Source of the DNA: Flavobacterium piscisymbiosum
GTDB lineage: Bacteria > Bacteroidota > Bacteroidia > Flavobacteriales > Flavobacteriaceae
DNA: 64,000 nt
Assembly: GCF_020905295.1 (NCBI RefSeq)
Contig: NZ_JAJJMM010000001.1
Coordinates: forward strand, 1,488,001-1,552,000
Reading direction: 5' to 3'
In this document: positions 48,925-59,743 of the stretch, piece after piece
Numbering within the stretch: position 1 is the first letter of the stretch
Layout: the number at the start of each line of letters is the position of its first letter
The notes under the pieces: generated by a model
The model's input: the letters and a program-made list of their open reading frames with translations, nothing else
Databases searched by the model: none
What the model was told of the DNA's origin: nothing
Translations under genes and position numbers: made by a program

Positions 48925-49071
48925 TAGGAATGCCTGGTTGGTAGATTTTTTTGATTGGATTAAAGGTATACGTTCCGTAGGAACGTTTGATCATGTTCGC
49001 AACATTCATTCCGTAAAATAGATGTCCCTACAGGACACCATGCAAATGTGTTAGTTTTTTTTTACCAACCA
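48925..49071. repeat. Cluster of short palindromes (ATTCCGTAGGAAT type)
   Basis: A series of small palindromes: ATTCCGTAGGAAT near 48928, CGTTCCGTAGGAACG near 48970, GTCCCTACAGGAC near 49023, and ATTCCTATCGGAAT just past 49071. TGGTTGGTA at 48935-48943 pairs with TACCAACCA at 49063-49071. No ORF is present; together with the next hairpin it fills the 308-base gap before the polyprenyl synthase gene. Confidence 0.7.
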
Positions 49072-49105
49072 AATATTCCTATCGGAATAATTTATTCAAA
49101 ATAAT

Positions 49106-49138
49106 AAACCCGACAGGTTTTTAAAACCTGTCGGGTTT
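49106..49138. terminator. Strong hairpin, likely bidirectional terminator
   Basis: Perfect 16-base arms AAACCCGACAGGTTTT/AAAACCTGTCGGGTTT with a single-base loop (sterically about four bases). It lies between the convergent trehalase and polyprenyl synthase genes. Confidence 0.8.
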
Positions 49139-49179
49139 ACTATGTGTAATAAAAGCGAAAAAAAATCATTAAAATCTTT

Positions 49180-49201
49180 TAATCTGTGGCAAAAAAAACT
49201 A
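49180..49201 (-). repeat. Stop-codon-linked motif TAGTTTTTTTTGCCACAG, copy 2
   Basis: Identical over 22 bases to 2925-2946 and again starting with the stop codon of a minus-strand gene, here the polyprenyl synthase. Confidence 0.65.
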
Positions 49202-50173
49202 AACCTTTCTTCCCATTAAATTCTCTCCAAAAGTTCTAAGAATATCTTTCTTTTCGGCGTTAATATCCATTTTTTCTAAAGTTTCAAAAGCTTTAAAAGT
49301 ATACATTTCAATAGCATCCTGAGTCGCTTTTGAAGCACCCGATTCATTAAAAATAGTTTTTGCAGTCGCTATTTTCTCTGTATTATCATCTAGTTGTAAA
49401 CTGAATAATTTTTCTAATTCTGAAGCCTTTTCAGGTGTAGAAAACTCTCTTGCTTTTAGGTATAAATAGGTTTTTTTGTTCACCATAATATCACCGCCAA
49501 CTTGTTTTCCAAAAGTTTCAGGATCTCCAAAAGCATCCAGATAATCATCCTTAAGCTGGAAAGCCAGACCTAAATTCAATCCAAAATCATAAATAAAATC
49601 AGCTTCTTTTTCAGTGGTTTTGGCTACGATTGCACCCATTTTCATGGCTGCGGCAACTAAAACGGCTGTTTTATATTCGATCATTTTCAGGTATTGCGGA
49701 ATCGTAACATCGTTTCTTTTTTCGAAATCAACATCCCATTGTTGTCCTTCGCAAACTTCAAGAGCAGTTTTGCTAAATAATTTTGCCAGGTCTCTAAAAA
49801 CCGCTGGTTCGTATTGTTCGAAATACTGATAAGCAAGAATCAGCATCGCATCGCCGGAAAGAATTCCGGTATTCAAATCCCATTTTTCATGTACCGTTTC
49901 CTGTCCTCTACGCAAAGGCGCATCATCCATAATGTCATCATGAACAAGCGAGAAATTATGAAAAACTTCAACCGCCATTGCTGCCGGAAGTGCTACTTTA
50001 TAATCAGTATCAAAAACTTCCGAAGCCATTAAAGTAAGTACAGGGCGCATGCGTTTTCCGCCAAGACCTAAAATATATTCAATGGGTTCATAAAGGTTTT
50101 TGGGCTCTTTACTAATACTTTGTTTTTGGAGATAAGTGATAAAAAAATCCTGGTATTGGCTAATATCGTGCAT
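49199..50173 (-). CDS. Polyprenyl synthetase (trans-isoprenyl diphosphate synthase)
   Basis: A 324-residue all-alpha prenyltransferase. The first Asp-rich motif DDIMDD (79-84, in FSLVHDDIMDDAPLRRG) and the second one in FQLKDDYLDAFGDPETFGKQVGGD are intact, as is GGKRMRPVL for isopentenyl diphosphate binding. It chains isopentenyl units onto an allylic diphosphate in the cytoplasm to make geranylgeranyl or longer diphosphates, for menaquinone or carotenoid synthesis. Product length cannot be set from the sequence alone. It is divergent from the YceI gene, with the TetR-type operators lying between them. Confidence 0.93.
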   Translation of the reverse strand: MHDISQYQDFFITYLQKQSISKEPKNLYEPIEYILGLGGKRMRPVLTLMASEVFDTDYKVALPAAMAVEVFHNFSLVHDDIMDDAPLRRGQETVHEKWDLNTGILSGDAMLILAYQYFEQYEPAVFRDLAKLFSKTALEVCEGQQWDVDFEKRNDVTIPQYLKMIEYKTAVLVAAAMKMGAIVAKTTEKEADFIYDFGLNLGLAFQLKDDYLDAFGDPETFGKQVGGDIMVNKKTYLYLKAREFSTPEKASELEKLFSLQLDDNTEKIATAKTIFNESGASKATQDAIEMYTFKAFETLEKMDINAEKKDILRTFGENLMGRKV

Positions 50174-50317
50174 AAAATTTAATCTGAATTGCGAGCTCCA
50201 AAGATACGATTCATAATGAATTATTTCTTTTTTAAAGTTTTAAATGACAGTTTCCATTTCAAAATGACCCCAAAACCGTTAATTATTAATTAGTTAGAAT
50301 TATTTTTGAAGAAACTT

Positions 50318-50357
50318 GGAAACTTTTTTGGTATTTAGAGTTTCCTGTCTATATTTG
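50318..50357 (+). promoter_or_regulatory. yceI promoter with overlapping operator, site 1
   Basis: GGAAACT (50318-50324) and AGTTTCC (50339-50345) are 14 bases apart. The operator covers TTTG at 50327-50330, which with TATATTTG at 50350-50357 forms a Bacteroidota promoter (19-base spacing). Four bases separate the operator from the -7 element. Confidence 0.8.
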
Positions 50358-50368
50358 CACTTTTAATT

Positions 50369-50396
50369 GGAAACTCTGAACACTGTAAAAGTTTCC
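50369..50396. promoter_or_regulatory. Operator site 2 in the yceI leader
   Basis: GGAAACT (50369-50375), 14 bases, AGTTTCC (50390-50396). It lies 51 bp (about five helical turns) from site 1, downstream of the likely transcription start. Confidence 0.75.
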
Positions 50397-50441
50397 GTTG
50401 GGAATTTTAAAGATTTATAAATTCACTAAAATCAAATATTT

Positions 50442-50963
50442 ATGAAAACAACATGGACCTTAGATTCTAGCCAATCAGATGTTTTAATCAAAATGAGACA
50501 TTCGATAATTGCTTACATGGGAGGAACGACGAATAAATTTGATGGTTATGTGAACATCGAAGACAATGAAATTGAAGATGCATCGGTTGAGTTTTCTTTA
50601 GATATCAATAACAAAAAGGATAGCTTTCAGCAAATCGATACTTATTTACAACTTCAGGATTTTTTTGATGTAAATGAGCATCCTATCATTAGTTTTAAAT
50701 CGACTTCTTTTCAAAAAATAAATAATAACATCAATTTCTTTAAAGGAGATTTAACGATAAAAGATGTAACCAGAGTAGTAGAGCTTGATGCTGAGTTTAT
50801 TGGCGTTAATACTTACAATGGCGAGAAAAAAGTTGCTTTTGAAATTAAAGGAGATATCAAACGTCAGGATTTTGGTTTAGATTATAATTCGTTCAATCAT
50901 AACGGAGGTTTAGCTTTAGGAAAAGATATTAAACTGATTGCAAATTTAGAATTCAGTATATAA
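50442..50963 (+). CDS. YceI-like lipid-binding protein, cytoplasmic form
   Basis: A 173-residue YceI-family beta-barrel (lipocalin-like). The start WTLDSSQSDVLIKMRH and the later GDLTIKDVTRVVELDAEFI are typical family blocks. No signal peptide is present, unlike the periplasmic E. coli YceI. Family members bind long isoprenoid chains; the gene lies divergent from a polyprenyl synthase, which may reflect a common substrate, but this is inference. Two TetR-type operators sit on and just after its promoter, suggesting co-regulation with the following efflux operon. Confidence 0.88.
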   Translation: MKTTWTLDSSQSDVLIKMRHSIIAYMGGTTNKFDGYVNIEDNEIEDASVEFSLDINNKKDSFQQIDTYLQLQDFFDVNEHPIISFKSTSFQKINNNINFFKGDLTIKDVTRVVELDAEFIGVNTYNGEKKVAFEIKGDIKRQDFGLDYNSFNHNGGLALGKDIKLIANLEFSI

Positions 50964-51009
50964 ATCTTACATAATGAATAAATTAATGTAAAATTATTAC
51001 AAATATCAC

Positions 51010-51049
51010 GGAAACTATTTTTCAGATTTTAGTTTCCTAAGTATATTTG
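51010..51049 (+). promoter_or_regulatory. TetR-efflux operon promoter with operator, site 3
   Basis: GGAAACT (51010-51016), 14 bases, AGTTTCC (51031-51037), then four bases and TATATTTG (51042-51049). The same operator-to-minus-7 geometry as at yceI. It lies 21 bases before the TetR ATG, so the regulator most likely controls itself and the downstream pump. Confidence 0.82.
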
Positions 51050-51070
51050 TGATACAATTTGAAAATTAAG

Positions 51071-51670
51071 ATGAAAGAGAAAATTATATCAAAAGCAAGT
51101 GAATTATTTTTAAAACTTGGTTTTAAGAGTGTTACGATGGACGATATAGCGGGTGAAATGTGTATTTCGAAAAAAACGATCTACAAATATTTTTGTAACA
51201 AAGAAGTGCTGATCGAAGAAAGTACATCAACAGTTCATCAGCAAGTACATGAAGTTATTGATACTATTGTTGCGAAAAATTATAACGCCATTCATGAGAA
51301 TTTTGAAATTAGAGAGATGTTTCGCGACATGTTTAAAAACGCAACCGATACTTCTCCTCTTTATCAGTTAAAAAAGCATTATCCTGAAATTTATCAAAAT
51401 ATAATGACGCATGAAATTGATCAGTGCAACCATTATTTCAGGGATAATATTTTAAAAGGAATAAGCGAAGGTTTGTACAGACCTGATTTGAATATCGATT
51501 TATATGTAAAATTTTATTACACATTAATTTTTCATATAAATGCCACTACAGTCTCAGAAAGAGAAGCACAAAAAATTGAATTAGAAGCATTGGAATACCA
51601 TACAAGAGCTATGGCAACCGAAAAAGGAATACTGGAATTAGAAAAACAACTTAAAAAAATTACTATTTAA
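51071..51670 (+). CDS. TetR-family regulator of the efflux operon
   Basis: A 199-residue regulator. Residues 5-50 are the TetR HTH (ASELFLKLGFKSVTMDDIA...ISKKTIYKYFCNKEVLIEE); the remaining helices form the ligand-binding and dimer domain, which is family-variable. It is first in the operon, 11 bases before the TolC-like gene. I infer that it binds the GGAAACT-N14-AGTTTCC palindromes found at its own and the yceI promoters. The ligand is unknown. I chose the ATG at 51071 over an in-frame TTG four codons upstream. Confidence 0.92.
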   Translation: MKEKIISKASELFLKLGFKSVTMDDIAGEMCISKKTIYKYFCNKEVLIEESTSTVHQQVHEVIDTIVAKNYNAIHENFEIREMFRDMFKNATDTSPLYQLKKHYPEIYQNIMTHEIDQCNHYFRDNILKGISEGLYRPDLNIDLYVKFYYTLIFHINATTVSEREAQKIELEALEYHTRAMATEKGILELEKQLKKITI

Positions 51671-51680
51671 TCATCAATCT

Positions 51681-53015
51681 ATGAAACGAATAATTCTTAT
51701 ATTTTTGTGTTCAATTGGCTTGTCTGCCAACGCACAAGTCAAAACACTAACCCTGAAAGAGGCTGTTGTATACGCGCTTGAAAACAAAGCCGATGCAAAA
51801 AAAGCAAAATTACAGGTTGAAAATAGTGAGTACAAGATTCAGGAAGTGCGATCAAGAGCGTTACCGCAAATTTCTGCCAACGGAAATTTAACATACAATC
51901 CTGTAATTCAGACTACAGTAATTGATGGTGCAGGATTTGGTGCACCGGGAACTACAATTCAGGCGGCATTTGGTCAAAAATGGACTTCGACTGCAGGACT
52001 TTCTTTAACTCAGACAATCTTTGATCAATCTGTTTTTACAGGATTAAGAGCTGCAAGATCTACTCGTGAGTTTTATCAAATAAACGATCAGTTAACAGAA
52101 GAGCAGGTAATAGAAAGAGTTGCTAATAACTATTACTCTGTTTACGTACAGCGCGAAAGATTGGTTTTATTAGATAGCAGTTATGTTAATACGACTAAAG
52201 TTCGTGACATTGTAAAAGGACAATTTGATAACGGTTTGGCTAAAAAAATTGACTTAGACCGTATTGTGGTTAAAATGTCGAACATTGATACAGAACGTCA
52301 GCAAGTAAAAAATCAAATTACATTACAGGAAAATGCTTTGAAGTTTTATATGGGAATGCCTATTGAAGCTCAAATCGAGATTCCAAAAGAAGAATTTGAA
52401 GTTGTTCCTGCTGCATTAACAGAAGTGCCAAATGTTGAAAACAGAACAGAATATTTGCTTTTGAAAAAACAAGAAGAGCTTTTGGTATATAATAAAAAAG
52501 CTGTTGAAGCAGGATATTATCCAACACTTTCTTTAACTGCAGGATACAATTATATTGGTCAGGGACCTGAAATGCCTTGGTTTGCAAAACCTAAAGACGG
52601 CGTTTACTGGTCAGATTTCTCTGCAATTGGATTGAATTTACATGTTCCAATTTTTACAGGATTCGGAACTCGTGCTAAAGTAAGACAAGCCGATGTAGAA
52701 ATAAGATCACTTCAGGAAGATATGAAAGATACCAAACTTTCGCTTGATTTAGATTACAGAAACGCAATGGCTCAAATTGATAATAATCTTGTGACTATCA
52801 ATAATCAAAAAGAAAATATGCGTTTGGCGCTTGAGATCTTAAGCAACACAAAAAACAATTACCTTCAGGGATTAGCATCATTAACAGATTTGTTAGATGC
52901 TGAAAATGCATCACTTGAAGCTCAAAATAACTATACCAGAGCAGTATTGAATTACAAAATTGCCGAAGTAGCACTAATCAAATCAAAAGGCGAACTTAAA
53001 ACTCTTATTAAATAA
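51681..53015 (+). CDS. TolC-family outer-membrane efflux protein
   Basis: A 444-residue protein with a signal peptide ending GLSANAQ, two repeats of the OEP domain (about 30-215 and 240-440) and long coiled-coil helices. It forms the trimeric exit duct for the RND pump encoded two genes downstream. NNYTRAVLNYKIAEVALIKSKGEL is the usual C-terminal helix pattern. Ten bases from the TetR gene, nine from the adaptor gene: one operon. Confidence 0.94.
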   Translation: MKRIILIFLCSIGLSANAQVKTLTLKEAVVYALENKADAKKAKLQVENSEYKIQEVRSRALPQISANGNLTYNPVIQTTVIDGAGFGAPGTTIQAAFGQKWTSTAGLSLTQTIFDQSVFTGLRAARSTREFYQINDQLTEEQVIERVANNYYSVYVQRERLVLLDSSYVNTTKVRDIVKGQFDNGLAKKIDLDRIVVKMSNIDTERQQVKNQITLQENALKFYMGMPIEAQIEIPKEEFEVVPAALTEVPNVENRTEYLLLKKQEELLVYNKKAVEAGYYPTLSLTAGYNYIGQGPEMPWFAKPKDGVYWSDFSAIGLNLHVPIFTGFGTRAKVRQADVEIRSLQEDMKDTKLSLDLDYRNAMAQIDNNLVTINNQKENMRLALEILSNTKNNYLQGLASLTDLLDAENASLEAQNNYTRAVLNYKIAEVALIKSKGELKTLIK

Positions 53016-53024
53016 CTAAACAAA

Positions 53025-54092
53025 ATGAAGAAAACTATTATAACAATCGTAATCATAATCGCAGCGCTGGGTGTGATTGGATATGTCTTAAATAATAATA
53101 AGAAAGAGAATAAAGCAAAAACAGATATCGTAGCAGAAAAAAATGCTGCAGTTTCAGTAAAAGTAGCTCCTGTAAAAACAGAAGAAGTTTCATTAGACTT
53201 TGTGGCTAACGGAAATTTTCAACCAATTCAGCAATTGACTTTCTCTGCAGAAAAAGCAGGAAAAGTAATTAGCGTTTTGGCTAAAGAAGGAGATTACGTA
53301 AGAGTAGGTCAGACTTTATTGACAGTGAGAGGTGATGTAATTAATGTAAGCGCACAACAAGCTCAGGCTGTTTACCAAAATGCAAAATCTGATTATGAAA
53401 GATATGAAAATGCTTTTAAAACAGGTGGTGTTACAAAACAACAATTAGATCAGGCAAAATTGGCATTAACAAATGCGCAGTCTAACCTAACACAAGCCAA
53501 CATTAATGTTGGAGATACTAAAGTAAAAGCGCCAATAAACGGATTCATCAATAAAAAATACATTGAGCCGGGATCTATCCTGGCAGGAATGCCTGCAACT
53601 GCTTTGTTTGATATCGTAAACGTTTCTAAATTAAAATTAGTAGTTACAGTAAACGAAAATCAGGTTGCAAGCTTAAAAGTTGGAAACCAAATTAATGTAA
53701 CAGCAAGTGTTTATCCTGATAAAACGTTCTCTGGAAAAATTACTTTTATTGCTGCAAAAGCAGATGAGTCTTTAAACTTCCCGGTTGAAATTGAAATTAC
53801 AAATAATGTAAACAATGACCTTAAAGCGGGTATGTACGGAACTGCAAACTTTTCATCAAACCAACAAAAACAACACCTTATGGTTGTACCAAGAAATGCT
53901 TTCGTAGGAAGTGTGAGCAGCAACGAGATTTTTGTAGTTGAAAATGGTATTGCAAAATTAAGAAAAGTAACTGCAGGAAGAATTTTAGGAGATCAGGTGG
54001 AAATTATCAAAGGATTATCTGACGGAGAAACTGTAATTATTACAGGTCAAATTAACTTACAAGACGGTAATACTGTAGAAATTATTAAATAA
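53025..54092 (+). CDS. RND efflux periplasmic adaptor
   Basis: A 355-residue membrane-fusion protein. An N-terminal membrane helix (TIITIVIIIAALGVIGYVL) anchors it. A lipoyl-like/hairpin region spans about 75-180 (VLAKEGDYVRVGQTLLTV, ALTNAQSNLTQANINVG, TKVKAPINGFI), then beta-barrel and membrane-proximal domains follow. It bridges the RND pump and the TolC duct. It lies between them in the operon; a 71-base gap with GCCTAAAGCCTA-type repeats follows. Confidence 0.94.
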   Translation: MKKTIITIVIIIAALGVIGYVLNNNKKENKAKTDIVAEKNAAVSVKVAPVKTEEVSLDFVANGNFQPIQQLTFSAEKAGKVISVLAKEGDYVRVGQTLLTVRGDVINVSAQQAQAVYQNAKSDYERYENAFKTGGVTKQQLDQAKLALTNAQSNLTQANINVGDTKVKAPINGFINKKYIEPGSILAGMPATALFDIVNVSKLKLVVTVNENQVASLKVGNQINVTASVYPDKTFSGKITFIAAKADESLNFPVEIEITNNVNNDLKAGMYGTANFSSNQQKQHLMVVPRNAFVGSVSSNEIFVVENGIAKLRKVTAGRILGDQVEIIKGLSDGETVIITGQINLQDGNTVEIIK

Positions 54093-54163
54093 TTTAAAGC
54101 ATTAAGCCAGACGCCATAAGCATTGAGCTTATTGCCTAAAGCCTACAGCCTAAAGCAAAATAT
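54093..54163. repeat. GCCTAAAGCCT-type repeat between adaptor and pump genes
   Basis: Direct copies of GCCTAAAGC and inverted AAGCATTGAGCTT segments fill the 71 bases before the RND start. No ORF or promoter is evident; it must be part of the operon mRNA. Confidence 0.55.
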
Positions 54164-57100
54164 ATGAAATTAGCCGAAATATCCATAAAACGTCCGTCGT
54201 TAGTAATTGTATTGTTTACAATTCTAATACTTGGTGGATTGTTTAGCTACAGCCAGTTAGGCTATGAGCTGATCCCAAAATTTGAACAAAACGTTATTAC
54301 AATTTCTACTGTTTATCCTGGAGCATCTCCAAGTGAGGTCGAGAACACGGTAACGAAGAAAATAGAAGATGCGATTGCATCCTTAGAAAACGTTAAAAAA
54401 ATTGACTCGAAATCATACGAAAGTTTATCTATCGTTTCGATTACACTGACATCAAACGCAAAAGTCGATTTCTCATTGAATGATGCGCAGCGTAAAATTA
54501 ACGCCATTATTAGTGATTTACCAGATGATGCAGATCCGCCTTCGTTAACTAAATTCTCTTTGAGTGATTTACCAATTATGACATTGGGTGCCAACGGGAA
54601 AATGGACGAAGCAGCATTTTATGACTTAATTGACAAAAAAATTGCGCCTATTTTATCTCGTGTACAAGGTGTCGCTCAGGTAAATATTATTGGTGGTTCA
54701 GAGCGTGAAATTCAGGTAAATCTTGATGCTGTAAAAATGCAGGGTTACGGATTATCTGTTCCTCAGGTACAACAAACTATTTTGACTTCGAACTTAGATT
54801 TCCCAACAGGAAACATCCAGACTCGTAATCAAAAAATATTAATTCGTTTAGCGGGTAAATATAAAAGTGTTAATGAATTAAGAAACTTAGTAGTTTCTTC
54901 TCAAAACGGAATTCAGGTTCGTTTAAGTGATATTGCCGATGTTCAGGATACGCAAAAAATTGCTGAAAAAATATCACGTGTAGATCAAAAAAGTGCGATC
55001 GTTTTACAAATCGTAAAACAATCTGATGCGAATGCGGTTGCGGTAAGTGAGCAATTATTAAAAACAATTGCTATTCTTGAAAAAGATTATAAAGTAAACC
55101 AGTTAAAATTAGAAGTTGCAAAAGACAGTACTGTTTTTACGCTTGAAGCAGCAGATTCTGTAGTGCACGATTTATTAATTGCGGTAGTGCTGGTAGCATT
55201 AGTAATGTTGTTCTTCCTGCATAGTATTAGAAACTCGCTGATCGTAATGGTGTCTATTCCGGCATCGTTGATCGCTACTTTTATTGGTATTTATTTAATG
55301 GGATACACCCTAAACTTAATGAGTTTATTAGGATTATCTCTTGTGGTTGGTATTCTGGTCGATGATGCAATTGTGGTCCTCGAGAATATTTATCGACACA
55401 TGGAGATGGGTAAAAATAAAATTCGTGCCTCTTATGACGGTACTGCCGAAATTGGTGGAACGGTAACTTCGATCACATTGGTAATTGTGGTAGTGTTCCT
55501 GCCAATCGCAATGAGTTCAGGATTGGTTTCTAATATCATTACGCAATTTTGTGTTACGGTAATTATATCTACTTTATTGTCACTTTTAGCTTCATTTACT
55601 ATTATTCCTTGGTTATCATCTCGTTATGGTAAATTGGAACATATTGAAGGAAAAAATTTCTTTGGAAGAGTTATCCTTGGTTTCGAAAGCTATTTAACAC
55701 GTTTCACTAACTGGATTTCTGAGCTATTAACATGGTGTCTGGATAATTATGGTAAAACTATTATTCTTGTATTAATATTGTTTTTTGGATCAATTTTTGG
55801 GCTTGGAGGCTTTATTGGAGGAGAATTTTTCGCATCATCTGATAGTGGTGAGTTCTTAGTTCAGATCGAAATGCCAAAAGATGCTTCGTTAGAACAAACG
55901 AACTTTATGACACAAAAAGCTGAAGCTTATTTAAAAGCTCAGGAATATGTTCATAGCCAAATTACAACTGTAGGACAAACTTCAGAAGGTTTTGGAGCAT
56001 CGCAAGCTACAGCTTACAAAGCAGAGATTGACGTAAAAATGATCGAACAAAAAGATCGTACAGATGACGCCAACGTTTACGCTGCAAAAATCAAACGTAA
56101 ACTTGAAAAAGTATTGGTTGGAGCAAAAGTAAAAACAGTTCCAGTAGGTATCTTAGGTACTGCTGAAGATGCTACATTAGGATTAATCGTAACAGGTCCG
56201 TCTACAGAAAGTGCTATGGCATTTGCTAAATTAGCTGAAGCTGAATTACGTACTATTCCGGGAACAACAGAGATTAAGTTAACTGTTGAGGATGGAAATC
56301 CTGAGGTAAATGTTAAAGTAGACCGTGATAAAATGGCGGCTTTAGGATTAACACTTCAAACGGTTGGTTTGACTATGCAAACTGCTTTTAGCGGAAATAC
56401 AGATGGTAAATACAGAGCTGGAGAATACGAGTACGATATCAACATCAGATACAATGCATTCGACAGAAAAAGTATTACTGACGTAAGTAACTTGATTTTC
56501 ATCAATGCAGCCGGACAACAAATCAAATTGTCTCAGTTTGCAGATATTACAGAAGGTTCAGGACCTAGCCAGTTAGAGCGTAGAGACAAATCAGCATCTG
56601 TAACCGTAAAAGGACAAAACGTTGGGGTTCCGTCAGGAACAATTGTAACGCAATGGCAGGCAAAATTAGACAAGCTTAAAAAACCAGCCGGAGTAAACTA
56701 TATCTGGGGTGGTGATCAGGAAAACCAATCTGAAGGGTTTGGTACTTTAGGAATCGCTTTATTAGCCGCAATTATTTTGGTTTACCTTGTAATGGTGAGT
56801 TTGTACGACAGTTTCGTTCACCCGTTTGTAGTATTATTTGCTATTCCATTATCATTTATTGGTGCTTTATTAGCCTTAGCATTAACAAACAACTCATTAA
56901 ATATCTTTACGATCTTAGGTATCATCATGTTGATTGGTCTGGTGTGTAAGAATGCGATCATGTTGGTCGATTATACCAACCAGAGAAGAGCAGCAGGAGA
57001 ATCAATCAGAACGGCATTAATTCAGGCGAATCACGCTCGTTTACGTCCGATTTTGATGACAACAATTGCGATGGTATTTGGTATGTTCCCAATTGCATTA

Positions 57101-57334
57101 GCATCCGGAGCAGGAGCTGAATGGAAAAATGGATTGGCCTGGGTAATTATCGGAGGATTAATTTCTTCATTATTCCTAACCCTGATCGTAGTTCCTGTAA
57201 TCTACCAAATAATGGAAGGTATCATCAGAAGATTATCTAAAGGAGAAAAAATCGATTACGAAGCTGAAATGGTTGCTGATTATGAGCACACAGAATTAAG
57301 TGAGGACGGTTTTAATCCTAAACATACTCATTAA
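54164..57334 (+). CDS. RND multidrug efflux permease (HAE1 type)
   Basis: A 1056-residue inner-membrane pump with twelve helices and two large periplasmic loops, in the AcrB/MexB group. The proton-relay Asp pair in TM4 is present (VVGILVDDAIVVLENIYRHME), and GFIGGEFFASSDSGEF begins the second porter half. Heavy-metal pumps of the CusA type have a different TM4 signature, so drug or lipid-like substrates are more likely. It ends the operon; the following 170 bases form a large inverted repeat that contains a terminator. Confidence 0.95.
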   Translation: MKLAEISIKRPSLVIVLFTILILGGLFSYSQLGYELIPKFEQNVITISTVYPGASPSEVENTVTKKIEDAIASLENVKKIDSKSYESLSIVSITLTSNAKVDFSLNDAQRKINAIISDLPDDADPPSLTKFSLSDLPIMTLGANGKMDEAAFYDLIDKKIAPILSRVQGVAQVNIIGGSEREIQVNLDAVKMQGYGLSVPQVQQTILTSNLDFPTGNIQTRNQKILIRLAGKYKSVNELRNLVVSSQNGIQVRLSDIADVQDTQKIAEKISRVDQKSAIVLQIVKQSDANAVAVSEQLLKTIAILEKDYKVNQLKLEVAKDSTVFTLEAADSVVHDLLIAVVLVALVMLFFLHSIRNSLIVMVSIPASLIATFIGIYLMGYTLNLMSLLGLSLVVGILVDDAIVVLENIYRHMEMGKNKIRASYDGTAEIGGTVTSITLVIVVVFLPIAMSSGLVSNIITQFCVTVIISTLLSLLASFTIIPWLSSRYGKLEHIEGKNFFGRVILGFESYLTRFTNWISELLTWCLDNYGKTIILVLILFFGSIFGLGGFIGGEFFASSDSGEFLVQIEMPKDASLEQTNFMTQKAEAYLKAQEYVHSQITTVGQTSEGFGASQATAYKAEIDVKMIEQKDRTDDANVYAAKIKRKLEKVLVGAKVKTVPVGILGTAEDATLGLIVTGPSTESAMAFAKLAEAELRTIPGTTEIKLTVEDGNPEVNVKVDRDKMAALGLTLQTVGLTMQTAFSGNTDGKYRAGEYEYDINIRYNAFDRKSITDVSNLIFINAAGQQIKLSQFADITEGSGPSQLERRDKSASVTVKGQNVGVPSGTIVTQWQAKLDKLKKPAGVNYIWGGDQENQSEGFGTLGIALLAAIILVYLVMVSLYDSFVHPFVVLFAIPLSFIGALLALALTNNSLNIFTILGIIMLIGLVCKNAIMLVDYTNQRRAAGESIRTALIQANHARLRPILMTTIAMVFGMFPIALASGAGAEWKNGLAWVIIGGLISSLFLTLIVVPVIYQIMEGIIRRLSKGEKIDYEAEMVADYEHTELSEDGFNPKHTH

Positions 57335-57335
57335 G

Positions 57336-57504
57336 AAATTCCAATAAAAGAAAATCCAAATTCCAATTTTTTGGAGGAATTTAAAACTAAAAAATCCCAA
57401 ATTCCAATTAAGGAGTTTGGGATTTTTTTTTATAAGAAGTCCATTTGGAATTTTTTAAGCAAAGTTCTTAAAATTGGAATTTGGATTTTCTTTTATTGGA
57501 ATTT
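57336..57504. repeat. Perfect 35-bp inverted repeat enclosing a terminator
   Basis: Arms at 57336-57370 and 57470-57504 are exact reverse complements (core TCCAATAAAAGAAAATCC). Inside lies a second hairpin, AAAATCCCAAA/TTTGGGATTTT (57391-57426), followed by a T-run. It separates two convergent genes. Confidence 0.9.
57391..57426. terminator. Terminator of the efflux operon
   Basis: An 11-base perfect stem ending in a T9 run on the plus strand. The A-rich upstream side allows it to act in both directions. Confidence 0.85.
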
Positions 57505-57511
57505 AATACCG

Positions 57512-59743
57512 TTATTTCTTCACAATCTTAAATGTTTTTACTTTTCCTTCAGCTTTTACTTTTAAGAAATAAAACCCGGAAGCAACATGTGATAAATCAA
57601 TTTCAGAATGAGTATTGTTTATTTTTTTGTTTACAATAGATTTTCCGGAAACAGATAGTATTTCGATTTCGTCAATGTTAGCCGTATTATCTACTATTAA
57701 AGTATGTTGAACAGGATTTGGATAATACTTGAAATTTGGTAAAACAAAATCAGGAGCCGATAGCGATCCATTTAATTTTACGGTAACAGCAAGACGCTCT
57801 TTACTTTCGATTCCGTTTATAGTTTGTGAGGCATAATAAGTAACACCATCTACTAAAACTGTTGATAAAGGCAAACTAGTTTCGGCAGATTTACTTGTTT
57901 TACCAGTTGATGAATTAGCTGAGCTATACCATTTAATATTTTGCCCCTCTACAACAAGATCACCTAAAGTTTGTCCGGCTTTGAAATCTGCTATAATTAC
58001 GGTTTTTCCATCTAATAAAGGACTTGGCGGATTTAAAGTTGTAGTCAAGGTAGTAAGGCACGTATTTTCATCTTTTACCGAAACGTGATAAGTTCCATAG
58101 TTTAAATTTGTAAAAGTATTACTTGATTGAAAATTAACTCCATCAAGTGAATATTCATAATTTTTTGTGCCTCCAGTGGCATTAATGGTAATATCGCGAT
58201 TTTCCGTAAGAATGGATGCTTCTAAAATAGAGGGTTCAGATATTTTAGCCTCTATTGAAAGCAGACATCCGTTTGTATCAATAATTTGAACTGTATAGTG
58301 ACCAGCAGGCAAATTCTTAAAAACATTATTTGTAGATTGTGGTATAATTAGTCCTGAAGTATTGCTAAGAGAATATTTTAAAGGAAACGTTCCTCCGGAT
58401 GCATTTACATTTATTGATCCGTTAGTTGAACCAAAGCAAGTTACAGCTTGTACTGCAGCATCTCCAATTATAGGACTGTAAGAATTTATAACAACATTTG
58501 AAGTGATTACACAGCCATAAGCATCTTTTGTGCTTACATTATAGCTTCCGGGAACCAAATCATTAAAAGTATTATTCGATTCATAAGGAAGTCCGTTCAA
58601 TGAATATTTATAAGGAAGTACTCCGCCAATGGTTTGAACTTTAATCCATCCTTTATCATTTAAACACGAAATTTGTTTGAAAGATAGTGAAGAATTTAAA
58701 GTAGAATTATATCGTTCTACTGTGATATTTTTTGTTGTAACACAACCATTGCTGTCTTTAACATACAAAGTATAATTTTCTGGAGGCAACTCTTTTGTGT
58801 TTATATCAGAATATGTTGCTCCCTTTGTAAAAGAGTAAGTATAAGGAGCTTTTCCTCCGGTTGCATTAATAGTCACAGAATCCATTCCTCCGCAAAATGC
58901 AGCTTTTGTAATGCTTGTAGTGACAGCCAATTCAGCAGGCGATTCGATAGTAAAATTAGTAGTAACGATACATCCGGACTTATCAAAAGTTTGAATAAAA
59001 TGTGCTCCGGGTGTTCCTGAAAAGATATTGCTTTCCTGATATTCATAAGAATTATCCAGTGAATATAAATAAGGACCCTGGCCACCACTTGCAGCAACAG
59101 TTATGGTCGATTTATAATCAGCTGCACACTCTGCAATTTTGGTGTTCGTAACTGATACCACTAAAGGATTCGTAGCAGGAAAAATTTGTATTACAGCAGG
59201 TTGAGGCCTGCAATTGGCAGCATCTTTTACAAAGAGGTAATATGTACCTGGATCAAGATTAAAAAAGCGATTATAATTAGTATAATTTTGACCATTATCT
59301 ATAGAATAATAATAAGGACCTTGTCCTCCATGGGCTATAACATCAAGTACTGCCTTCTCGCCTGTACATTTTATTGGCTGAATTGTCCATATAAATAACA
59401 AGTCAGGATTGAAATCAAGTTTAAAATAATTGGTTGTAACAGCACCTTTATTATCAATTCGCGCGTAAATTGTTTTGACCGTTTCAGAAACATACGCCGT
59501 TGGATTCGGAATAGGATTAGCATTAGTGGTTGCATCAGTTTGGCTTAAATGAAAACTAACAGTAGTTTCGGCTGGATTTAAGTTTCCTAACAATGCTGTT
59601 TTTTGAGATGTTAAATCAAATATTGGATAACTTTTACAGCCCATAAGATCATTTATTTGACCGTAAAAAACATTAGTAAACAATAAAAGAAAAAAAAGTA
59701 GAGTTTTTTTTATACGTATAGGTTTGTTAAATTTGTTTAACAA
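57512..59743 (-). CDS. SprB-repeat protein with T9SS type A sorting domain
   Basis: A 743-residue secreted protein. After the signal peptide (KKTLLFFLLLFTNVFYGQ) comes a short beta-rich domain, then six SprB-type repeats of about 75 residues (residues 122-575), each with a pattern like GGxxPYxYSLDG...F.NL.PGTY...VKD..GC. An Ig-like segment follows, and a T9SS type A domain (YYPNPVQHTLIVD...SGFYFLKV) ends the protein. It is likely surface-attached and adhesive; SprB repeats are known from gliding-motility adhesins, but this is much smaller than SprB itself. The only usable start is TTG at 59743; see findings. It is downstream of the retropepsin gene, 117 bases away. Confidence 0.88.
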   Translation of the reverse strand: MLNKFNKPIRIKKTLLFFLLLFTNVFYGQINDLMGCKSYPIFDLTSQKTALLGNLNPAETTVSFHLSQTDATTNANPIPNPTAYVSETVKTIYARIDNKGAVTTNYFKLDFNPDLLFIWTIQPIKCTGEKAVLDVIAHGGQGPYYYSIDNGQNYTNYNRFFNLDPGTYYLFVKDAANCRPQPAVIQIFPATNPLVVSVTNTKIAECAADYKSTITVAASGGQGPYLYSLDNSYEYQESNIFSGTPGAHFIQTFDKSGCIVTTNFTIESPAELAVTTSITKAAFCGGMDSVTINATGGKAPYTYSFTKGATYSDINTKELPPENYTLYVKDSNGCVTTKNITVERYNSTLNSSLSFKQISCLNDKGWIKVQTIGGVLPYKYSLNGLPYESNNTFNDLVPGSYNVSTKDAYGCVITSNVVINSYSPIIGDAAVQAVTCFGSTNGSINVNASGGTFPLKYSLSNTSGLIIPQSTNNVFKNLPAGHYTVQIIDTNGCLLSIEAKISEPSILEASILTENRDITINATGGTKNYEYSLDGVNFQSSNTFTNLNYGTYHVSVKDENTCLTTLTTTLNPPSPLLDGKTVIIADFKAGQTLGDLVVEGQNIKWYSSANSSTGKTSKSAETSLPLSTVLVDGVTYYASQTINGIESKERLAVTVKLNGSLSAPDFVLPNFKYYPNPVQHTLIVDNTANIDEIEILSVSGKSIVNKKINNTHSEIDLSHVASGFYFLKVKAEGKVKTFKIVKK

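Follow-up and report, generated by a model that had tools for sequence, protein, structure and literature searches.

A conserved 28-bp palindrome as the probable operator of a TetR regulator of yceI and an RND efflux operon in Flavobacterium and its relatives

To our knowledge, few operators are known in Bacteroidota. Elsewhere, two dimers of the TetR-fold repressor QacR have been described on a 28-bp palindrome that lies over its promoter, with the proximal subunits sharing base pairs (PMC6018408, PMC3022030). For BmeR5 of Bacteroides fragilis, the described binding site separates the regulator gene from the channel gene of BmeABC5 (PMC4790292). In Flavobacterium johnsoniae UW101, the operon FJOH_RS06575-RS06590 encodes a TetR, a TolC, an adaptor, and a permease, and its TolC gene (FJOH_RS06580) was mutated in four of five lines coevolved with the antibiotic producer Burkholderia thailandensis (PMC10197871). 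One of these tolC mutations, put back into the F. johnsoniae ancestor, reduced susceptibility, and the same source places a Gly at codon 83 of tolC and an 11-bp direct repeat around a deletion (PMC10197871). The main text of that report names the TetR of the operon, and the words operator, promoter, palindrome, inverted repeat, and YceI are absent from it.

The F. johnsoniae operon is orthologous to one within the window – the whole 64,000-nucleotide stretch of Flavobacterium piscisymbiosum DNA analyzed here, which spans bases 1488001-1552000 of contig 1. In one of the compared genomes (G136), tolC and TetR are 91% and 85% identical to those of the window, and tolC has a Gly codon at position 83 and an 11-bp direct repeat at nucleotides 250-260 and 283-293. 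The best named relative is Flavobacterium sp. SLB02, the TetR of which is identical over 199 residues. The genes and sites of the window run in the order divergent polyprenyl synthetase, site 1, site 2, yceI, site 3, tetR, tolC, adaptor, and RND permease, with gaps of 10, 9, and 71 bp between the last four genes (Table 1). The YceI domain is assigned with 108.7 bits (cut-off 23.7). A TetR_N helix-turn-helix lies at the N terminus of the TetR (41.4 bits, cut-off 24), and the predicted fold is that of the family, all-helical with a C-terminal ligand and dimer domain. In what follows, TTTG and TAnnTTTG are motifs that we take to be the -33 and -7 elements of the Bacteroidota promoter.

Table 1. 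Coordinates of operators, promoter elements, and genes at the locus (window numbering).
Feature	Position	Strand	Remarks
Divergent polyprenyl synthetase gene	49199..50173	-	Pfam PF00348
TATCTTTG, on polyprenyl synthetase strand	50199-50206	-	Starts 112 bases from operator 1
Operator 1 (putative)	50318..50345	+	Exact match; between divergent polyprenyl synthetase gene and yceI; overlaps yceI promoter
TTTG, likely -33 element of yceI promoter	50327..50330	+	Inside operator 1, position 10
TATATTTG, presumed -7 element of yceI promoter	50350..50357	+	Starts five bases past operator 1
Operator 2 (putative)	50369..50396	-	Exact match; presumed yceI leader; inner GTNTT core on minus strand
yceI, YceI-like protein, 173 aa	50442..50963	+	Pfam PF04264, E 4.4e-31
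Operator 3 (putative)	51010..51037	+	Exact match; over tetR promoter
TATATTTG, presumed -7 element of tetR promoter	51042..51049	+	Starts five bases past operator 3
tetR, presumed repressor	51071..51670	+	ATG at 51071; PF00440
tolC-like outer membrane channel gene	51681..53015	+	Pfam OEP, E 6e-50
Periplasmic adaptor gene	53025..54092	+	NCBIfam TIGR01730 RND_mfp, 210.5 bits (cut-off 94.9)
RND permease gene	54164..57334	+	Pfam ACR_tran, E 2e-247

Like QacR and its IR1 operator, the locus combines a TetR fold with a 28-bp inverted repeat overlapping an efflux gene promoter, and the polar dyad described below would follow if two dimers overlapped in their inner contacts (PMC3022030, PMC6018408). 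One mark of a QacR-type operator, an inverted repeat of ~28 bp over a promoter, is found here, with a length of 28 bp, TAnnTTTG five bases after the repeat, and TTTG inside operator 1. The half-site letters differ from those of QacR, however, as does the pump, which for QacR is an MFS transporter, and the number of dimers at our sites is one that we infer. SmeT-SmeDEF reportedly has a divergent gene layout and operator letters unrelated to those of the window. It is nevertheless described as sharing a 28-bp pseudopalindrome, a multidrug pump, and an RNA polymerase block on both the pump and the regulator's own gene (PMC3128119). BmeR5-BmeABC5 comes from the same phylum and joins a TetR repressor to a tripartite RND operon (PMC4790292), but in the window the site precedes tetR instead of separating it from tolC. 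MgxR (Bxe_B3018) of Burkholderia xenovorans is a TetR regulator that binds its own promoter region, in a paper that also discusses the YceI-family bxe_B3019; unlike the window operator, its consensus has 18 bases and different letters, and RND is absent from the main text (PMC4349456). The class of mechanism is known already; this regulator-operator pair and its reach were not found in the literature searched: in open-licence titles and abstract beginnings, among the matches listed, neither the operator nor a YceI-TetR-RND regulon in Bacteroidota is announced.

An initial annotation, made from the letters of the window, had reported three copies of GGAAACT-N14-AGTTTCC with no mismatch in the 14 fixed bases and TATATTTG five bases after the first and third. 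Our scan of the window recovered the three sites and both -7 elements at those places (Table 1), and the two arms occur with no other spacer of 0 to 40 bases within the window. The annotation had also proposed a scan of the genome. Across the 6.49 Mb the exact pattern is infrequent, with three copies, all at the yceI-tetR locus, against a chance expectation of 0.02 per genome at the base composition of the window. With two or fewer mismatches allowed, the genome has 29 matches and a reversed-pattern control of the same composition has 33, so weaker matches elsewhere in the genome represent background. A wider regulon in the same genome was rejected, since there are no further exact sites. The sole single-mismatch match (C1:3972320) lies ~140 bp upstream of an open reading frame that reads by eye as an ECF-type sigma factor; it looks like background and was treated as chance. 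A lone AGTTTCC half-site also occurs at 50249-50255, between the synthetase promoter and site 1, and by eye a partner at the right distance is absent.

The motif extends across the phylum. Exact copies are present in 178 of 199 genus genomes (reversed pattern, 2), 157 of 199 family genomes (reversed pattern, 10), 57 of 198 class genomes (6), and 24 of 118 phylum genomes (4), in samples drawn evenly with few genomes common to several; among genomes of other classes the count is 9 of 89, vs 3 of 89 for the reversed pattern. Named loci indicate that the family is Flavobacteriaceae. A comparison with relatives, likewise proposed in the initial annotation, found the sites kept beside the same operon. 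The unbiased count comes from 109 loci, 29 of the genus and 80 named, for which the TetR protein was the sole query and the motif played no part: the 900 bp preceding tetR contain an exact site in 107 and an exact reversed pattern in none. Of the other two, one has a one-mismatch site and the other, where the regulator comes second in a tandem pair, has no site. When up to two mismatches are tolerated, the reversed pattern also appears in these 900-bp stretches (11 of 29 and 10 of 80), so that weight can be given to exact matches and, among the weaker ones, to those located at the same place. By that measure 26 of the 30 regulator-bearing genomes among the 42 family genomes without an exact site have a one- or two-mismatch site upstream of the regulator (reversed pattern, 1 of 30); the remaining four have none within two mismatches, one of them carrying an inserted spacer base. 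Spacer lengths across 110 loci (L121-L200 and L230-L259, strand held) were 14 in 117 cases, 15 in five, 13 in one, and 37 in one.

Loci from other genera, fetched by the pattern, have the TetR gene on one side of the site and a divergent polyprenyl synthetase gene on the other in 30 of 30 cases, with the synthetase adjoining the site in 29. A 28-bp site that can be recognized by eye, is exact in 156 of 198 family genera, and stands beside the pump repressor in all 30 of these inspected loci gives a handle on such systems: pump operons under this control could be listed from sequence alone, and reporters and ligand screens become feasible. Some of the counts below use a second set of 151 distinct loci, merged if identical around tetR, that comprises 100 protein-fetched loci, 30 pattern-fetched loci (L091-L120), 20 picked loci (L071-L090, some chosen for lacking an exact site), and the window's own.

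Outside the family, 18 of 24 class-level loci have a TetR gene beside the site. So do 20 of another 21 loci, including each of the nine matches from other classes; the remainder of the 21 are 11 picked class-level matches and one from the phylum sample. The gene was undetected at the site in the other six class-level loci, one of which has an outer membrane channel gene only, and in one of the 21; polyprenyl synthetase was undetected in the inspected loci outside the family. Two of these extra-family stretches have a GC content of 60-63%, at which chance would yield an A+T-rich 28-mer still more rarely. Elsewhere in the phylum, in loci from other classes (L264-L272), the motif stands before TetR-adaptor operons. 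One of these (L267) encodes a TetR, an adaptor, an ABC ATPase (by eye, from the translation), and a tolC-like gene further on; with an ABC ATPase after the adaptor, the type of pump changes under the same operator. Two class-level loci (L201 and L202) have exact sites followed two bases on by minus-strand TAGTTTTG, with TetR undetected beside them and neighbors that read by eye as a glycosyltransferase and a metallophosphoesterase; they are possible extra targets in one family.

Promoter elements hold a nearly fixed position relative to the site within the family. Among 80 yceI loci, the distance from site 1 to the start of TAnnTTTG is five bases in 77 and six in the other three, and TTTG lies at operator position 10, 19 bp from TAnnTTTG, in 66 of the 80 yceI promoters and at position 11, also with 19 bp, in two; no TTTG was found in 11. 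Before tetR, TAnnTTTG starts at five bases in 91 of 120 cases and at six in 23. Where yceI is present and a site also precedes tetR, TAnnTTTG follows site 3 by five bases in 47 of 51 loci, and TTTG was not found inside site 3 in 37 of the 51. Outside the family an offset of two bases is seen at 15 of 39 sites (TAnnTTTG not found at 14), and six of those 15 have TTTG at position 7, preserving the 19 bp, with TTTG not found in eight. With the offset at +5 in most loci of the family and at +2 in these 15 sites elsewhere, the operator would stay while the promoter moves, and the simplest reading is that the promoter slid along the operator, the two forming separate layers. This 39-site count omits L269, a locus with TetR that the distance rule missed; a 41-site count used below for the dyad adds L269 and L274, the latter with TetR undetected. 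An A+T-rich stretch directly upstream of site 1 (50278-50317), possibly a UP-like element, is partly conserved in relatives, and in loci without yceI the A+T-rich stretch upstream of the site is roughly TGTTAAAtTAATgTTAAAACTTT.

Beyond what the initial annotation had noted, namely three sites of identical geometry, we observed that the sites have a sense and differ from one another. The arms are near invariant and the best-kept part of the site, and the dyad is polar. Positions 14-15 are GT in all 80 copies of site 1, and the tetR sites of loci without yceI have GT in 68 of 69 cases and AC in the other one. Site 2 runs in the opposite sense, with GT on the minus strand in 45 of 47 cases and AC in two; no TAnnTTTG occurs within 40 bases after it on that strand (47 of 47), and in 47 of 48 the plus strand has none just past it either. 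The spacer is more relaxed in site 3 than in sites 1 and 2: just 15 of 51 copies show a GT or AC dyad, and in F. johnsoniae the spacer of the corresponding site measures 15 bases. At site 3, then, either the core is less important or TetR would bind more weakly. The 41 sites outside the family divide into 21 with a GT or AC dyad, against ~5 expected from base composition by our estimate, and 20 with neither. The oriented consensus is GGAAACTWTTNNNGTNTTNNNAGTTTCC.

Taken together, we consider it probable – at roughly 0.88 – that the adjacent TetR uses the palindrome as its operator and would repress both yceI and its own tetR-tolC-adaptor-RND operon. Autoregulation and control of the pump operon, the former already judged very likely in the initial annotation, are strongly supported by the comparison of loci, and the control of yceI that it had also put forward is supported. 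We infer binding, repression, dimer number, and ligand along the following lines. Without ligand, TetR would sit on 28 bp that extend over the -33 region and stop four bases short of the -7 element, keeping RNA polymerase off yceI by way of operator 1 and off tetR-tolC-adaptor-RND by way of operator 3. Operator 2, just past the presumed yceI transcription start, would tighten repression, and a ligand, probably a lipophilic toxic compound, would release TetR. The 28-bp size and the polar center suggest, by analogy with QacR, two dimers on overlapping inner half-sites: one dimer would contact GGAAAC (1-6) and an inner GTNTT (14-18), and the second the mirror image. The inner half-sites would then share positions 14-15, where the preferred letters can be present for only one of them; this would account for a dyad that is GT or AC instead of symmetric. 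The polar dyad thereby offers a testable prediction about two overlapping dimers sharing one site. For F. johnsoniae, the tolC gene that came under antibiotic selection would be linked to a concrete switch.

Other readings of the palindrome make different demands on the same data. A transcript hairpin, terminator, or repeat element would require no protein, and the perfect 7-bp arms and the probable transcription of operator 2 would fit one; yet sites 1 and 3 lie upstream of -7 elements, the 7-bp arms would have to close a 14-base loop, three copies per genome do not make a dispersed repeat, and Rfam gave no match at gathering scores across 49000-58000. The RNA element was rejected on this last ground, and the reading as a whole is scarcely credible. 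Binding by another conserved regulator, with the TetR merely sharing the operon, is very improbable. The pairing of palindrome and TetR does come from sequence comparison, and TetR and channel genes were undetected at five class-level sites (L201, L202, L208, L220, and L225), but across families and classes the TetR gene is the most constant partner of the site, while the synthetase and even the type of pump change. All but a few of the 157 matching family genomes, moreover, have one exact site, and in a loose first look each genus genome had 1 to 31 TetR-query candidates among the matches listed, with the site at this one.

The remaining readings accept a TetR operator or a promoter but account differently for its shape. 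It is improbable that the central GT is conserved only as part of the -33 element: TTTG does lie inside operator 1 in most yceI promoters, and in 23 of the 69 tetR promoters without yceI it sits at position 11 and ends on the dyad G, yet at site 1 it usually ends at position 13, before the GT, the GT of operator 2 is kept on the other strand, where the next 40 bases contain no TAnnTTTG, and outside the family, where the promoter is placed differently, GT or AC persists in about half of the sites (21 of 41). A single TetR dimer in an unusually wide conformation, spanning both arms of the 28 bp, deserves more serious thought and is still unlikely. The arms, after all, are what is best kept, and their centers, at a distance of ~22 bp, fall on the same side of the helix, but a symmetric dimer would leave the polar GT center unexplained, and the known single-dimer TetR operators are shorter than 28 bp. 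Structural neighbors of the TetR in a VIA-align comparison, among the matches listed and together with proteins of other binding modes, include QacR (1jt0), CprB (4pxi), and FadR (5gpc), for all three of which two-dimer binding modes are described (PMC6018408). We favor two overlapping dimers as the probable occupants of the site.

The annotation had also read the spacing of sites 1 and 2 as about five helical turns that would allow co-operative binding. The spacing itself holds, with starts 51 bp apart in the window and 51 or 52 bp apart in 43 of 47 pairs. The other pairs are spaced by 45 (two), 50 (one), and 56 bp (one), and in another class two loci (L266 and L267) have two exact sites that start 41 bp apart. 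Since the spacing is not constant and the 47 pairs come from related species, five-turn co-operativity is not established. A further pair, 1365 bp apart, was left out of the analyses of 47.

The yceI gene is a lineage-specific addition to the locus. Of the 151 distinct loci, a set that includes pattern-fetched and picked loci, 81 have yceI placed between synthetase and tetR. Consistent with control of yceI by the TetR operator, we found a site (two or fewer mismatches) upstream of yceI in 80 of the 81. In 29 of the 81, a site precedes yceI and none lies between yceI and tetR, which suggests a single transcript. The center of site 1 is that of the only tetR site in loci lacking yceI, so site 1 would represent the older promoter of the regulator, now driving yceI, and site 3 would have been gained later, in part of the genus. 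BcnA of Burkholderia, a YceI lipocalin, reportedly captures antibiotics. By eye, no signal peptide is evident in the YceI translation of the window, which makes a role as an extracellular trap less likely here. YceI proteins are described as often carrying isoprenoids or ubiquinone (PMC9113575).

Polyprenyl synthetase appears to be a family-wide neighbor and not clearly a member of the regulon. Among the matches listed for 139 loci, TAnnTTTG on the synthetase strand lies 108-115 bases from the site in 36 and 58-65 bases in 14, and it was not found in 54. In the window the distance is 112 bases; occlusion by operator 1 is unlikely as a rule, and the synthetase was rejected as a direct target. 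In a few loci (29/40, 38, and 41 bases), the -33 region of the synthetase could reach the site.

A broader picture, which we offer as speculation and hold unlikely as a whole, is that one TetR lineage has kept a single 28-bp polar operator code across classes while the promoter slid, the pump changed from RND to ABC exporter, and neighbors were exchanged. In the family of the window, synthetase and YceI would then point to a natural ligand of isoprenoid kind and to a pump whose primary role is in membrane lipid housekeeping, with drug resistance coming second.

Relatives of the regulator and its pump also occur in other arrangements. A decayed second relative of the regulator is present in the same genome (C1:6007101-6007535, L286), covering model positions 58-195 only and interrupted by five stops. 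Three loci (L076, L078, and L085) have tandem tetR-pump operons beside polyprenyl synthetase, each operon with its own TetR; one pump is near that of the window (RND 72-90% identical) and one is distant (parts 25-29%), an arrangement that suggests either duplication with differential loss or an exchange of pumps under one switch.
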